From IMG/VR virus record IMGVR_UViG_3300017971_000575, positions 1 to 33,829 of that record: a DNA stretch of 33,829 nt; one strand, 5' to 3'. The stretch's first letter is position 1, and each line of letters opens with the position of its first letter. Source of the DNA: a virus. Position numbers and translations under genes: made by a program. Shown here in pieces: positions 10,532 through 33,172 of this stretch. The notes under the pieces were generated by a model that worked only from the letters and a program-made list of their open reading frames with translations, was not told the origin of the DNA and ran no database searches.

Positions 10532-10876
10532 TCAGTCCGGGTAGAATTTGACCCTGGACATCATGTGTACAGCTTCATCAGAGAGTGCCTCGCACTGGCT
10601 AAGTGTAATGACCGTAGGGGTGAACCTGTCACCCTTAGTATAGTGCTCACTATGCTTAGTCAGTGTGGCCTCTCTATCCATCGCGTTCTCCACCACACTA
10701 CCGGGTACAAGGAAGTACACCCCCTGCCACATGATCATGAAGGGCTCAGGCTTTTCGAGCTTGATCTCTTCCATGATGCGACTGAATAGGAAGAACACGT
10801 CGCCCGGCTTCCACGGTTGACTCCCATCCAGCATCTTAATCAAATCCGACTTGTCATTCGACTTGAAGATTCTCAT
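10532..10876 (-). CDS. Unknown protein, 114 aa
   Basis: The ATG at 10876 (MRIFKSNDKSD) is preferred over a possible TTG further upstream because a GAGG lies about 10 bases before it. The protein has a regular mix of strands and helices (DVFFLFSRIMEEIKL, FMIMWQGVYFLVPGSVVENAM) and no cysteine cluster or known motif. The start lies inside the end of the upstream helix-turn-helix gene (23-base overlap), so the two are probably co-translated. Its stop is one base from the stop of the convergent late gene. No function is recognised. Confidence 0.6.
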   Translation of the reverse strand: MRIFKSNDKSDLIKMLDGSQPWKPGDVFFLFSRIMEEIKLEKPEPFMIMWQGVYFLVPGSVVENAMDREATLTKHSEHYTKGDRFTPTVITLSQCEALSDEAVHMMSRVKFYPD

Positions 10877-11129
10877 CGTAAAGTGCCTCGACAAATAGGT
10901 TAATCCAGGTCCGCTTTGTCATGAACCGACGACCACGCTTGACGTACTGGAGACACACGGACTCGCCGTCGTACGCCTCTTTGCCATGCCGCATCCAGTT
11001 ACGCACAGTCTGAACACAAGGCACATCTTCGTGTGTGATGCTGTGATAGTAGATGCATGCGTCTTTGACTGTCAACCACTCACCTCTGGCCTTCCGCTTC
11101 GACTTCTTCGGGGGAGGTCCCTGCGTCAT
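10854..11129 (-). CDS. Small helix-turn-helix protein, DUF1580/excisionase-like
   Basis: A 91-residue basic protein with GGAGTATAAGG before its ATG. After a basic N-terminus (GPPPKKSKRKARG), residues 18-50 read WLTVKDACIYYH then VQTVRNWMRHGK, the layout of a MerR/excisionase winged helix-turn-helix, followed by VKRGRRFMTKRTWINLFVEAL. The order tVxxAc - TvRnWmxxG - xGrrfxTkxxxxxF is close to the DUF1580 family that I recall chiefly from Planctomycetes. It probably binds DNA, perhaps as a regulator of late expression. Excisionase function is unlikely because no integrase is seen. The family assignment is from memory. Confidence 0.58.
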   Translation of the reverse strand: MTQGPPPKKSKRKARGEWLTVKDACIYYHSITHEDVPCVQTVRNWMRHGKEAYDGESVCLQYVKRGRRFMTKRTWINLFVEALYDENLQVE

Positions 11130-23407: not shown

Positions 23408-23887
23408 CTAAAAGTTAGTGACTACATGTTCATCCATCCAGGGTCTGTAACGCAGGCGTGTGCCTGTCCCCACCCTGAAGTACAGTTTCGTTTGCTCTCG
23501 GTTCTCCCACAGGTTCCGCAGCACACGCCAGCAGTACCGTGGGGTCAGGCGTAGGTCATCGGCTACCTCCTTCACGGACATGTTGTCAGTTACGAATCGG
23601 TCGTAGATAGCGGCGACGTTCCTCGACAGGATCGGGAACAGTTGCGGGGCTACCTCCTTCATGCGACTGAGCCGGTAGCTGACCGTACGCCGGTCAATGT
23701 CCAACACTTCAGCCGCTTCCTCTTGGGAAAGGCCAAGGAAATCATGGTGACACAGGCGATACACTGCTTCTTGCTCCGTAGGGATCACACGTGACTGGTC
23801 AGGGTACTTGACCACCCCTGTCACTGCCAGTGCCTGCATGTCCTCGGCCAGTTGCTGCTTGATCTGAGCCTTCCGTGATGCGTCCAT
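23408..23887 (-). CDS. Regulator with two helix-turn-helix units (sigma region 4-like)
   Basis: A 159-residue protein. The ATG at 23887 is chosen because GGAGG lies 11 bases before it; an upstream in-frame ATG has no ribosome site. Residues about 50-90 (PTEQEAVYRLCHHDFLGLSQ, EEAAEVLDIDRRTVSYRLSR) look like the sigma-70 region 4 helix-turn-helix. A second unit follows (MSVKEVADDLRLTPRYCWRV). It is basic at the C-terminus. It may redirect transcription to phage promoters or act as a repressor or activator; a true sigma factor would also need region 2, which is absent. Confidence 0.66.
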   Translation of the reverse strand: MDASRKAQIKQQLAEDMQALAVTGVVKYPDQSRVIPTEQEAVYRLCHHDFLGLSQEEAAEVLDIDRRTVSYRLSRMKEVAPQLFPILSRNVAAIYDRFVTDNMSVKEVADDLRLTPRYCWRVLRNLWENREQTKLYFRVGTGTRLRYRPWMDEHVVTNF

Positions 23888-23952
23888 AAAAACACGTGCC
23901 TCCATTATACCCGCAAAACTGTACCATTCTGCCAAGTTTCGCAGGAATTTTC

Positions 23953-27338: not shown

Positions 27339-27428
27339 TCACCCTCCAAAGTAGTGCTGCACCAGCACGATACCAGTGCCAATTGCGAAACAGATGCTCC
27401 CTGTCAGGTAGAACCAATACGGTGTCAT
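27339..27428 (-). CDS. 29-aa single-helix membrane microprotein
   Basis: A 29-codon frame starting MTPYWFYLTGS, followed by ICFAIGTGIVLVQHY and ending FGG. The middle is one hydrophobic helix of about 18 residues with Gly spacing, so it probably sits in a membrane. Its ATG overlaps the previous stop (ATGA) and its stop lies inside the next gene's ribosome site (GGAGGGTGACATG). GGGAG lies 5 bases before the ATG. It is the second of three such microproteins in the leftward block. The function is unknown. Confidence 0.62.
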   Translation of the reverse strand: MTPYWFYLTGSICFAIGTGIVLVQHYFGG

Positions 27429-27979
27429 GCCCACTCCCATCTCATCTGCCTGTCATCCTCTGCCGCACTGAGGAACGAACTAGGCTTGAATCCAGCTTTC
27501 AGTCGTGTCACGGTCCACGCAGCGGCCTGATATTCACACGGTTCACACCCGTGCTTACGTGCACAGTCTTTGACCTTACGTTCCAGTTCTCGGTACAGTG
27601 ACTTGGACAGTCGTTGGTGCTCGACGTCGAAGTACTTGCACATCCACACGTCGATGGTCACGACATTGAAGTCACCTTTCAGGTTGGCTGCAAACCGCTG
27701 TACCTTTGGGCCAGACAAGGGCTCTCTGTTGAACGCTCTGATCACGTTCGGGTGGTGCGTTTTCATGGGGGCCAACCACAACGCAACCACCCCATCTGCC
27801 CTCCATTTCTCGTACAGTCTGCACGCAGCCCGCCAGTTCTTCTTCACCGATACACGCGGCGAAGTCGCAGCCAGAACGTCAGCGAATAGATCAGCATCCT
27901 CACCGAACTCACGGACCAAACGTTCATGGGCTCGGTGGTACCAACCACCGTATCGCTTGATGTCCAGCTTTGTCACCAT
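27425..27979 (-). CDS. Conserved phage protein, DUF7178/DNA-glycosylase-fold-like
   Basis: A 184-residue protein with GGAGGTGTGAC before ATG 27979. The sequence GGWYHRAHERLVREFGED, ADLFADVLAATSPRVSVKKN, LSGPKVQRFAANLKGD, VVTIDVWMCKYF and YQAAAWTVTRL follows a family I recall in phages as DUF7178. The helical layout with AATSPR and a conserved VTxDxWM resembles helix-hairpin-helix base-excision enzymes, but catalytic residues are not certain. It may act on modified bases or on phage DNA. The family and fold statements are from memory. Confidence 0.6.
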   Translation of the reverse strand: MVTKLDIKRYGGWYHRAHERLVREFGEDADLFADVLAATSPRVSVKKNWRAACRLYEKWRADGVVALWLAPMKTHHPNVIRAFNREPLSGPKVQRFAANLKGDFNVVTIDVWMCKYFDVEHQRLSKSLYRELERKVKDCARKHGCEPCEYQAAAWTVTRLKAGFKPSSFLSAAEDDRQMRWEWA

Positions 27980-30625: not shown

Positions 30626-30655
30626 AGCAAGACCCTTTCAGTGAAGTCCAAGAAA

Positions 30656-30717
30656 GTCCTCGTGCGGGGATCGAACCCGCCCAGCTAAGGCGTAGAAAGC
30701 TGTACCCATTCGAGGAC
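30656..30717 (-). ncRNA. Shrunken tRNA-like element B (62 nt)
   Basis: On the minus strand: GTCCTCG (30717-30711), then AATGGGTA, then a stem CAGCT/AGCTG with an 11-base loop, then T-arm GCGGG-TTCGATC-CCCGC, one bulged A, and CGAGGAC (30662-30656), followed by TTTCTTGG. Acceptor-like (7 bp) and T-stems (5 bp) are perfect. It looks like a D-armless tRNA; the loop centre reads CT-ACG-CC, so ACG could be an anticodon, though the loop is too long. No CCA is encoded. It lies between a membrane microprotein and the 70-aa zinc protein. Confidence 0.64.
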
Positions 30718-30751
30718 CGTCACGTTTCGAGGGAGTGACACCCCTTCATCC

Positions 30752-30835: not shown

Positions 30836-30866
30836 GGCGTGATCTCCTATTCAGTCAAGACGTGAA

Positions 30867-30908
30867 GCCCGTGGGCCGGAATCGAACCGGCCTGAACCAT
30901 TCACGGGC
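30867..30908 (-). ncRNA. Shrunken tRNA-like element C (42 nt)
   Basis: On the minus strand: GCCCGTG (30908-30902), then AATGGTTCAG, then T-arm GCCGG-TTCGATT-CCGGC, one bulged C, and CACGGGC (30873-30867), followed by TTCACG. It is the simplest of the three: a 7-bp acceptor-like stem stacked on a 5-bp T-arm with only 10 bases in place of the D- and anticodon arms. All pairs are Watson-Crick. It lies between the 70-aa gene at 30926 and the 27-aa microprotein. Confidence 0.64.
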
Positions 30909-30925
30909 AAAGGACTGTGCAGTGC

Positions 30926-31138
30926 CTACTCAGTGGCAGCGGGCGTGCTGGGGACCTGGATGTAGGCATTCAGGCCCACGATGATGGGGTGTCCCTTGTG
31001 CTGGGCCGCAGTGGCCTTATTCCCTCGGGACGAAGCGACGACGGTCGTCTTGCCCGTCTTACTCGGGGCCTCACTCAAGGGGCACGAGACCTGAAGCGTG
31101 GGCACACCATTCACCTTGGTAACTTTTGCGGTCATCAT
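30926..31138 (-). CDS. Conserved small phage protein, 70 aa
   Basis: The first gene of the leftward unit. ATG 31138 (next codon also ATG) has CAGGAG 7 bases upstream. The sequence TLQVSCPLSEAPSKTGKTTV, VASSRGNKATAAQHKGHPI and IVGLNAYI follows a pattern I remember in small phage and bacterial proteins (SxxGKxxVVASxxGN - GxPxxVGLNAYI). Beta-rich, no catalytic residues. As the promoter-proximal gene it is probably made early and in quantity. The function is unknown. Confidence 0.68.
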   Translation of the reverse strand: MMTAKVTKVNGVPTLQVSCPLSEAPSKTGKTTVVASSRGNKATAAQHKGHPIIVGLNAYIQVPSTPAATE

Positions 31139-31169
31139 AGTACATCTCCTGAAAGAGATTAGAGTGATA

Positions 31170-31186
31170 GCCCGACCAATTCGGGC
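31170..31186 (-). repeat. Leader hairpin GCCCGA-ccaat-TCGGGC
   Basis: A 6-bp GC-rich stem with a 5-base loop, 32 bases upstream of the first leftward gene (ATG 31138) and downstream of the promoter. On the minus strand the loop is ATTGG and the following bases are TATCACT, also found after element A. It should sit in the 5' leader of the leftward transcript. Confidence 0.55.
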
Positions 31187-31687
31187 CAACTCAGATCAGG
31201 CTCGGGAATGAACCGAACCGTCCGATAACCGCACAGTCCGCAAATAGAAGATGGGCGATCCGTCGCCCCCATTCGTTCCGTCCCTACGCACACCACGCCT
31301 TGTAGAATCCAGTGCCGAATATTCGACGGTCCTCTTGCATGTGACGTCCGGGGGCCATTCTGACCCGACAGTCCGATAGCCTTGTGGATGCAGCACCCTC
31401 ACGGGCCGCTGATTCATCCAGGTTATCGGGCCTGAACGTCGTCTCTGTGGACCGTCTGATCCGAGACCGTTGGCGTGATCTGCTTCGTCTTGGACTGTTC
31501 ATTATAGGTCCTTTCGATAGCAGATTCTGGTTTTGGTATCCATCGGATACCCTGCCAACCACCAATTTGTCCGTCCGATAAGACGCGACTCCATTCTGAG
31601 AACACGTTATTGCCCCTATGGTCGTCCGTGCTCCGTGCGTGCGTTTGGTCGTCCGTGCGTCTGCCAGTCCCTTGTGCCGACACTTTA

Positions 31688-31716
31688 AGTATACACGATG
31701 AATAAACGCGTGCCAA
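31688..31716 (-). promoter_or_regulatory. Leftward sigma-70-type promoter
   Basis: On the minus strand TTGGCA (31716-31711), a 17-base spacer and TATACT (31693-31688) match the consensus -35 and -10 boxes with ideal spacing. It points into the leftward gene block, with the first gene starting about 540 bases downstream. GTCCGATAA copies lie downstream at 31573 and 31220 and TTATCGGAC lies upstream at 31782, so it may be controlled by the factor that binds those repeats. Confidence 0.6.
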
Positions 31717-31908
31717 CAACAAAAAGCCAAATTGACGCACAATTGTGCAAAATGGCCTTTAGCGTACCGTGGGCCGCATGATTATCGGACGGCAGGCTGA
31801 AGTTTTTCTGGAGCGTCCTATAAAGTAGAACGCGTGCGTAGGGCAGGGACTGTGATAGAATGGGGATAGCATGCCCATGGGGAGCGATGTTATCGGACGT
31901 GCGTCCCT

Positions 31909-32219
31909 GGTGGCAAGGGTGGCACTTTGGGCCGGAAGGGTGGCACAAGTATGGCAGGGAATCGGCGTTCCTGATCTGAAAACGGCAATCTGCCATACTT
32001 GCCATACTTTCCACCCTTATGAAAGAAGTATATAGAAGGGTGGCACGCAATTGTTGTCCTCGTGTGCGTGACTTGTGCGGAGGACCGTGTGGCGTGTACA
32101 CACAAGCCTTATAAGGGGTTTTTGGTAGGGTGGCAAGTATGGAAAGGGTGGCAGATCGTCGCAAGTCTAGGTCCGATAAGAACTTAGCGTGTGACGTCAA
32201 GTATGGCAGAAGGGTGGCA
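31909..32219. repeat. Iteron-like repeats GGGTGGCA and AAGTATGGCA
   Basis: GGGTGGCA occurs at 31917, 31938, 32038, 32128, 32146 and 32212, with GGTGGCA at 31909. AAGTATGGCAG occurs at 31947 and 32199, AAGTATGG at 32135, and inverted copies lie at 31990-32018, where two TGCCATACTT-type units and a CCACCC unit are joined. The cluster of about 310 bases, half direct and half inverted, sits between TTATCGGAC copies. It resembles iteron arrays at plasmid and phage origins or a multi-site operator. Confidence 0.72.
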
Positions 32220-32929
32220 GTAGGCAGGCAGCGTTATCGGACGTTGGTGCACAAGCCATGCAAATGAGGCCATGTTATCGGACTGATGGAGGTCTTAGCC
32301 CCTACCCTGTCCCTGTCCCTGTCTCCATACCATGGATATCAGTCTCCGACGGGGCTGATTATAGGACTCTGTCCCCATGGAGAGAGGCAGGTCCGATAAG
32401 ATCACGCCAGTCACGCCAGCAACGCCGGTATTATCGGACCACCGGGGGGTACCACCCTCGCTTTTCGCGGGCAGGAGTCCCATACCCCCTCTTAGACCCC
32501 GCCTATATGCCCCATTTTTGGGACTTGTGCGTAGTTTTGCGTAATTTGTGCCATTTTCCTGCAAAAAAGTGCCCCCATAACCCCCGGTCTAGCCAGCATT
32601 TACGAGCCTACGCGAAAATTGTTCCCACGAGAGGGCACCTGACGTTGGCAAATAGGTACACTCTGAGGGTTAAGTGGAAGGGAGTGGTGTTTTTGCAGTC
32701 ATCGGTCGCTCACGCAGCCGCGAGCAGGGCAACGCCACCCCTCACTGCCCCAAAGCGGGCTGGTATCATCGGGCGATACGTCATGAGCCCGGCTATTACG
32801 CACAACTGTGCACACCGAGCAGACCCCGGTGCACCGGAAATGACTCGGATGTTGTGCGAAGACTATCGGCGGGCGGGCCTGGACACGATACCTACGGGTC
32901 CCTCCAAACCCAGACCTTGCCCGCCACTT

Positions 32930-33003
32930 GGTCCCATAGCTCAGTTGGACGGAGCACCGGATTGTCGATCCGAAGGTCGCGGGTTCAAGTCCCGCTGGGG
33001 CCG
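32930..33003 (+). tRNA. tRNA-Asp(GTC)
   Basis: A complete 74-base cloverleaf: acceptor GGTCCCA/TGGGGCC (one G-T pair), D-arm GCTC/GAGC, anticodon stem CCGGA/TCCGA (outer pair mismatched) with loop TTGTCGA, so anticodon GTC, and T-arm GCGGG-TTCAAGT-CCCGC. The discriminator is G. CCA is not encoded. It is the first element of the rightward unit beyond the control region. Confidence 0.9.
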
Positions 33004-33011
33004 TTTGGGGT

Positions 33012-33028
33012 TGCGGTTCGAGTCCGCA
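33012..33028 (+). other. Isolated T-arm, probable tRNA remnant
   Basis: TGCGG-TTCGAGT-CCGCA is a perfect T-arm 8 bases after tRNA-Asp, but no 5' acceptor strand or anticodon arm matches it. It is followed by a CACGAG (33027-33032) ... CTCGTG (33060-33065) inverted repeat. It is most likely the remains of a third tRNA, or a T-arm-only element related to those on the minus strand. Confidence 0.45.
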
Positions 33029-33087
33029 CGAGCACGTTGTCGATATTTGGATATTGAAACTCGTGTTTGGGGGAGGCCCGCCCTCGG

Positions 33088-33172
33088 GGAAGGTAGGGGG
33101 CAATGGTGCCCAACTGGTCTTGAAAACCAGCCCAGCCTTGACCGGCTGACAGTTCGATTCCGTTACCTTCCG
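33088..33172 (+). tRNA. tRNA-Ser(TGA)
   Basis: An 85-base class II tRNA: acceptor GGAAGGT/ACCTTCC (7 bp), a D-arm with GG in the loop, anticodon stem CTGGT/ACCAG with loop CTTGAAA (anticodon TGA), a long variable arm (CAGCC/GGCTG), and a T-arm with loop TTCGATT that has one A-C mismatch. The discriminator is G, as usual for serine tRNAs. CCA is not encoded. Confidence 0.88.

Follow-up and report, generated by a model that had tools for sequence, protein, structure and literature searches.

A nine-letter box, best written as TTATVGGAC (V being A, C, or G), was found to be densely clustered in one control region of a phage genome, and the same box is carried by at least five phage groups (grouped by shared ORFs) that have little else in common. 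The explanation we prefer, to which we give about an even chance, is that a conserved and likely host-encoded factor reads this box at the origin and early control region. The window analyzed here is the whole of IMG/VR record IMGVR_UViG_3300017971_000575, which contains 33,829 bases and is classed as linear.

The exact word TTATCGGAC occurs nine times in the window, five times on the plus strand and four times on the minus strand, and all copies are located within positions 31220–32439 (table 1). Dinucleotide shuffling of the whole window gave a mean of 0.20 copies and a maximum of 2, and nine copies were reached in none of 100 shuffles. Both the count and the shuffles thus confirmed what a previous sequence-only reading had noticed, namely nine exact copies in both orientations in a single control region. 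When one mismatch was allowed, 15 matches were detected in the window, 13 of them in this region. That reading had reported about five near copies there, which become four under the one-mismatch rule, and none elsewhere, which is true of exact copies but not of one-mismatch copies, as two of these were found at 1463 and 7466. An equal density of TTATCGGAC in the rest of the window, named in the reading as contrary evidence, was absent from the whole-window motif search. The degenerate form TTATVGGAC has 11 matches (nine TTATCGGAC and two TTATAGGAC), all in the same region, where 0.36 would be expected for the window. Judged from their density and position, these clustered 9-mers appear to behave like binding sites in a control or origin-like region, as had been proposed.

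Table 1. Boxes and other features discussed in the text (window positions, unless a contig is named).
Feature	Position	Strand	Remark
Box 1, TTATCGGAC	31220..31228	-	exact match
Near box, CTATCGGAC	31371..31379	-	one mismatch, position 1
Near box, TTATCGGGC	31423..31431	+	one mismatch, position 8
Box 2, TTATCGGAC	31573..31581	-	exact match
Box 3, TTATCGGAC	31782..31790	+	exact match
Box variant, TTATAGGAC	31815..31823	-	differs at fifth position
Box 4, TTATCGGAC	31890..31898	+	exact match
Box 5, TTATCGGAC	32171..32179	-	exact match
Box 6, TTATCGGAC	32234..32242	+	exact match
Box 7, TTATCGGAC	32275..32283	+	exact match
Box variant, TTATAGGAC	32359..32367	+	differs at fifth position
Box 8, TTATCGGAC	32391..32399	-	exact match
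Box 9, TTATCGGAC	32431..32439	+	exact match
Box-bearing control region	31150..32500		GC-skew minimum, between leftward and rightward gene blocks
Iteron array AAGKRTGGCA	31915..32219		12 copies: nine exact, three with one mismatch
Candidate sigma-70-like promoter, TTGGCA-17-TATACT	31688..31716	-	consensus match only
First leftward gene, 70 aa	30926..31138	-	no Pfam or PHROG match
DUF7178 protein	27425..27979	-	companion gene; no role as box reader assigned
Two-helix-turn-helix protein	23408..23935	-	earlier candidate reader, judged not to be the reader
Helix-turn-helix protein	10854..11129	-	earlier candidate reader, judged not to be the reader
Protein B members	L432 7707-8075, L442 6233-6607, L440 7198-7509, L191 5373-5810		also in L406, L415, L411, L428, L118, L140

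The leftward gene block of the window encodes a family A DNA polymerase, a D5-type primase-helicase, a Sak4-like annealing protein, and an exonuclease, and the remaining large ORFs, in the right-going block, were taken as structural. The best-covering INPHARED polymerases show just ~27–31% identity to the window polymerase. From the place of the box-bearing region, at the GC-skew minimum and between the two gene blocks, we infer that it is the origin and early control region. Two tRNA genes were found (Asp, 32929-33004; Ser, 33088-33172). T-arm-like GGTTCGA/TCGAACC pairs were also observed near them (30654-30726, 30865-30911, and 33002-33040), at which ARAGORN detected no tRNA.

Box copies stand between and around an array of AAGKRTGGCA iterons, a word which has no exact copy in the window outside the array, and the iteron-like cluster of the previous reading therefore proved to be real. 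The array includes two opposed blocks of three iterons in 9-bp steps (31991-32018 on the minus strand and 32126-32153 on the plus strand), which form an inverted repeat. Iterons are in general private to one initiator and regularly spaced, and the AAGKRTGGCA copies are probably the sites of the phage's own initiator. Comparison within the window's group revealed that the iteron word varies (AGGGTGGCA/AGTATGGCA in the window, GTGTCCAGG in G018, and TCTAGGTAA in G049) and that TTATVGGAC is present in all three; G069 likewise has TTATVGGAC, with no clear iteron next to its box cluster. Such a constant box next to variable iterons would be expected where the box is recognized by a factor common to these phages and the iterons by an initiator specific to each phage.

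The leftward promoter that had been reported within the region corresponds to a sigma-70-like match at 31716-31688, but such matches are no commoner in the window than in shuffled sequence (two found, 1.7 expected). The box itself was rejected as a promoter element, as it shows no strong preferred offset to −10/−35 hexamers apart from its own overlap at −2. Box sites fall both inside and outside ORFs.

To determine how widely the box is distributed, we scanned viral contigs in IMG/VR. An inverted TTATCGGAC pair was detected in 68 stretches, many with dense clusters, from contigs of 33–62% G+C, the densest having up to 23 exact copies per 7-kb locus. Three direct copies were found in 64 stretches, versus 11 for the reversed word. 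The flanks of most box copies are unrelated to one another (median identity 0.31), whereas those of the reversed-word copies are alike (0.48–0.93), identifying the latter as tandem repeats. A cluster, defined as at least four TTATVGGAC within 1.5 kb with dissimilar flanks, was present in 69 of 120 motif-selected viral contigs (125 loci), some of which are closely related, so that the number of independent lineages is lower; a few motif-selected loci, among them L409, L418, and L424, were left out of this count because their flanks are alike. At least four boxes per 1.5 kb were observed in only one of 80 loci picked by DNA polymerase alone, and at least four reversed words in none of the motif-selected loci. 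A chance origin of the clusters is excluded by the shuffles and the reversed-motif scan. Spacing between boxes is irregular, with preferences near 14–18, 25, and 34. In L160 (776-1270), a 164-aa ORF with many SDN tripeptides is read from antisense box copies, showing strong retention of the box even in what may be coding sequence. The original observation thus holds and extends further than first reported.

Group W, to which the window belongs, has clusters in the window, G018, G049, and G069 and lacks them in G070 and in two fragments close to 20 kb in length, G067 and G068. Exact copies in this group number 22 in 6.0 kb inside control regions versus one in 175 kb outside. Group S is YuA-like, its terminase being 54% identical to that of Pseudomonas phage YuA, and group P is T7-like, with a T7-type terminase. 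Group A is A+T-rich (33–34% G+C) and comprises G004, G009, and a region scaffolded into a Heimdallarchaeota record; the remaining group consists of phages of 70–180 kb, which have small proteins in common with group A. Tolerated changes in control regions are mostly at position 5 (A, G, or T), with fewer at positions 1, 8, and 9 and almost none at positions 2 and 7. At position 5, groups W, S, and A accept A, G, and T and prefer C, and no position-5 variant was seen in the group P control regions. Several group P contigs hold just 4–5 boxes. Orientation also differs: the window and the YuA-like group have sites in both directions, and boxes in the large phages share one direction (36 of the 38 exact copies in L432 and 23 of 24 in L442) and line an early-looking operon of short ORFs, both inside and outside these ORFs. 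Such a one-way arrangement is reminiscent of stoperators or of a titrating array and is not required of DnaA boxes.

In all four W phages that have a cluster, it lies no further than 2.7% of the genome length from the minimum of the cumulative GC skew, and on this basis the W cluster is probably the origin or early control region. Among 18 contigs tested, the cluster lies no more than 5% from a skew extremum in 11, where 3.6 would be expected, GC skew being a quantity that also tracks gene orientation; in several YuA-like contigs the extremum is a maximum, not a minimum, and both points weigh against the explanation we prefer. The sequence-only reading had suggested looking for the same repeats near the origins of related phages, and they are indeed present in the origin-like regions of these phages.

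The organization of TTATVGGAC resembles that of the DnaA box. Like TTATVGGAC, the DnaA box is an asymmetric 9-mer which starts with TTAT (or TTWT), has a free fifth base with C preferred, and clusters, in a single orientation or in both, next to iterons where the skew is lowest. Position 5 is free with C preferred in the DnaA boxes of Escherichia coli and Mycobacterium tuberculosis, and altered boxes accompany altered DnaA in Epsilonproteobacteria (PMC5043019). On the other hand, the DnaA box is TTAT-N-CACA (TTATNCACA), whereas positions 6–9 of TTATVGGAC are GGAC, and it is therefore not a DnaA box by definition; the resemblance is offered as a likeness, with no claim of class membership. Canonical DnaA boxes do not explain the region, as they are not enriched in the window (one TTWTNCACA versus 1.79 expected). 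Viral contigs with three DnaA boxes (TTATCCACA) are common (at least 120 stretches). Among the matches listed, none of 80 loci selected by DnaA boxes has two or more TTATVGGAC per 1.5 kb, and only one of 125 box loci has at least three TTATNCACA. DnaA-box clusters and TTATVGGAC clusters are mutually exclusive.

Other repeat types fit less well. Iterons of plasmids and phages are also short repeated sites at an origin, but the box is irregularly spaced and constant among unrelated phages, and the window has separate iterons. Arm-type sites of tyrosine recombinases and transposon end repeats are short asymmetric repeats read by one subunit; the copy number, place, and sharing of the box do not fit them. 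When the running text of open-licence papers was searched for the word, its complement, and its variants, none of the papers listed dealt with such a repeat, judging by title or abstract; a single abstract, on quorum sensing in Chromobacterium, contains one of the strings.

The two helix-turn-helix proteins of the window had been put forward as partners of the repeats, and neither could be retained. The smaller one (10854-11129) has relatives in G018 and, weakly, in G049 and none in G069, though G069 has a box cluster. The two-helix-turn-helix protein (23408-23935) has convincing relatives solely in the window's own group (G018, G049, G067, and G069), and its helix-turn-helix segments, including the recognition helix, vary strongly among phages with an identical 9-mer. 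The broader proposal of a dedicated phage protein is also unsupported, the box being common to groups in which no common DNA-binding protein was found. All-against-all BLAST of 1,889 ORFs of at least 60 aa, extended with HMMs and a partial profile comparison, revealed no DNA-binding family joining the groups; the profile comparison, drawn from groups W, S, and P, scored 1,244 of 2,231 pairs, being nearly complete for W–S and covering little of W–P. Families joining three or four groups are mainly polymerase, lipoprotein, protease-like, tail-related, and nucleotide- or DNA-metabolism proteins, and DUF7178 and others are common to two groups. In the W–S profile comparison, just four families scored above 99% (DUF7178, a protease-like and a tail-related protein, and one other). 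A phage-encoded DnaA-like reader was rejected as well, since no DnaA domain IV was detected in phage-encoded proteins of 50 records at E values up to 1.

DUF7178 is present in 9 of 50 records chosen for at least three boxes versus 1 of 50 others. It is annotated as a glycosylase in some mycobacteriophages, and our search found no literature on it. Exchange of companion genes such as DUF7178 and the protease-like protein between groups suggests shared or overlapping hosts. Because no common DNA-binding family was found to join the groups, the first candidates are unfit, and companion genes have been exchanged, a host-made reader is favored, and we regard a host factor as the somewhat more probable identity of the box reader.

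Two small phage families lie close to the boxes. The family of the first leftward gene (30926-31138) adjoins box clusters in G018, G049, and G069 and, outside the group, in L117, and occurs within ~1 kb of one in L099; its members (window 30926-31138, L274, L298, L312, L117, and L099) have the pattern SGK...ASTxGN...NAY. Protein B is a small conserved protein encoded within the dense box region of the large phages and group A. For three of its members, the Pfam and PHROG searches that were run found no match, and for one neither did INPHARED. A second small family (LEIP...LAMSYG) adjoins protein B in several of its phages. Structure models are too weak to interpret for both the leftward protein (pLDDT 59.3) and protein B (mean pLDDT 56.7), the weak model of the latter having a beta-beta-beta-alpha core.

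We also searched for the box in cellular genomes. A scan for three direct copies, covering genomes from 84,980 species, yielded 81 stretches, just two of which (L178 and L191) are box-phage regions. No chromosomal origin with the box was recognised among the 81 stretches on the basis of flank likeness and similarity to box-phage proteins, about a dozen being read closely, with a pattern that misses sparse or mixed-orientation origins; this result counts against a host whose own oriC uses the box. Planctomycetota were searched because L178, a YuA-like phage contig, sits in a Phycisphaerales genome. The 294 Planctomycetota genomes contain 12 box pairs versus 8 control pairs, and 4 of the 12 are spaced exactly 22 bp. 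Two or more DnaA domain IV matches were detected in 42 of 59 Planctomycetota genomes, and the second DnaA paralogues that we read have very diverse signatures replacing RDHTT. At 20 Planctomycetota loci, TTATNGGAC was not found near the second, weaker DnaA matches, and 18 further genomes had no inverted box pair.

The other copies in cellular genome records are of several kinds. G408, a member of Phycisphaerales (the order of G101), has 59 exact TTATCGGAC versus 2 reversed control copies, and 14 of 20 sites read fall in a long interspersed repeat. In three Planctomycetota loci (L375, L376, and L377), a conserved TTATCGGAC pair 22 bp apart is located near a coiled-coil gene and a gene which we take to be ThuA-like, with a third copy following in L375 and L376. 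In-frame TTATCGGAC at gene 3′ ends encodes LSD repeats in L213, L190, L181, and L189, whose genes presumably specify AlbA/Schlafen-type ATP-binding proteins. Interspersed repeats with TTATCGGAC often 21 bp apart were observed in Bacillaceae (L170, L195, and L196), two of them near what we assume to be nuclease-related-domain (NERD) genes. L191 is a group A phage region beside a run of N in the Heimdallarchaeota record G104 (~70–94 kb), and this junction is probably a mis-joined scaffold.

Several other explanations were considered. It is quite unlikely, in our judgment, that the boxes resemble the stoperators of cluster A mycobacteriophages, being sites at which a phage-encoded monomeric repressor, most naturally the 23408-23935 protein, stops transcription. 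In both systems there are many asymmetric sites per phage, and the strong one-way orientation along the early operon of the large box phages matches the transcription-following orientation of stoperators. An immunity repressor is expected to diversify, and an identical 9-mer in unrelated phages does not agree with this; the 23408-23935 protein has recognition segments that differ among same-box phages and a profile with no convincing relative in other groups. In addition, sites in the window and in YuA-like phages point both ways, no integrase was noticed in the window, and genome-wide dispersal is not observed in group W. Stoperators are 13-mers found throughout the genome, where the phage's own repressor recognizes them, whereas the boxes are 9-mers that keep to one or a few control regions and recur in unrelated phages; each cluster A repressor binds as a monomer through two DNA-binding domains, a feature that the two helix-turn-helix segments of the window protein recall, and the orientation of stoperators tracks transcription (PMC9283540). 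A reader encoded by phages and passed among them, so small or so diverged that our searches missed it, is also unlikely. Protein B would be an example, as its gene lies where the boxes are dense in large phages and the A+T-rich group and it has a weak model resembling double-stranded-RNA-binding or HicB-like domains (best Z 5.8, below the telling value of 8); against it, searches detected no protein B in group W or in the YuA-like and T7-like phages, its model has the low mean pLDDT given above, and the small 30926-31138 gene was found only in group W and two other contigs.

The boxes might instead be decoys which titrate a host regulator or defence protein and are not parts of an origin. We consider this very unlikely, even though one early region (in L432) has up to 60 TTATVGGAC, more than an origin should need, and sites invade coding sequence (LSD and YRT runs): several T7-like phages have only 4–5 boxes, and a decoy would require neither the fixed place of the W cluster at the skew minimum nor the iterons found beside it in three of four cases. 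Spread of the 9-mer as an artefact or by a transposable or tandem repeat is scarcely credible for the phages. It fits some bacteria, such as G408 and those with in-frame LSD or 21-bp repeats, and explains many bacterial hits, but it is ruled out for most phage clusters by their unrelated flanks, and the window copies point both ways.

Returning to a conserved, host-encoded factor, TTATVGGAC would be a short asymmetric box, probably bound by one subunit per box. The protein would be conserved, DNA-binding, not dedicated to the window phage, and most likely a host product. Many unrelated phages, all with one uncultured host range, would gather the box at the origin or early control region, beside the iterons of their private initiators; in the window, the 12-copy array is surrounded by eleven boxes, and the leftward and rightward gene blocks diverge from this region. 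With the host factor bound to the boxes and the phage initiator to the iterons, the two may jointly open the origin and set early transcription. The box itself, its density, its free fifth base, its occurrence across phages, and its position are computed results, whereas protein binding, a host source of the reader, and a role in replication are inferred. DnaA boxes and iterons are known to act together at plasmid origins. A DnaA relative of altered specificity as the reader is a tentative guess. Likewise speculative, though possible, is the idea that origin firing in a whole guild of unrelated phages of an uncultured bacterial lineage depends on a host protein of initiator-like type not yet described, either a paralogue of DnaA or an analogue, whose specificity has changed, and that the box belongs to a second "DnaA-box language" exclusive of the known one.

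Letter for letter, the same 9-mer occurs in podovirus-like, siphovirus-like, and large phages, which points to a common cellular target that is needed and unchangeable. Identifying the reader would reveal which host lineage many uncultured phages infect and provide a simple sequence flag for their origins. It would also put to the test the existence, alongside DnaA, of a cellular initiator that recognizes another box.
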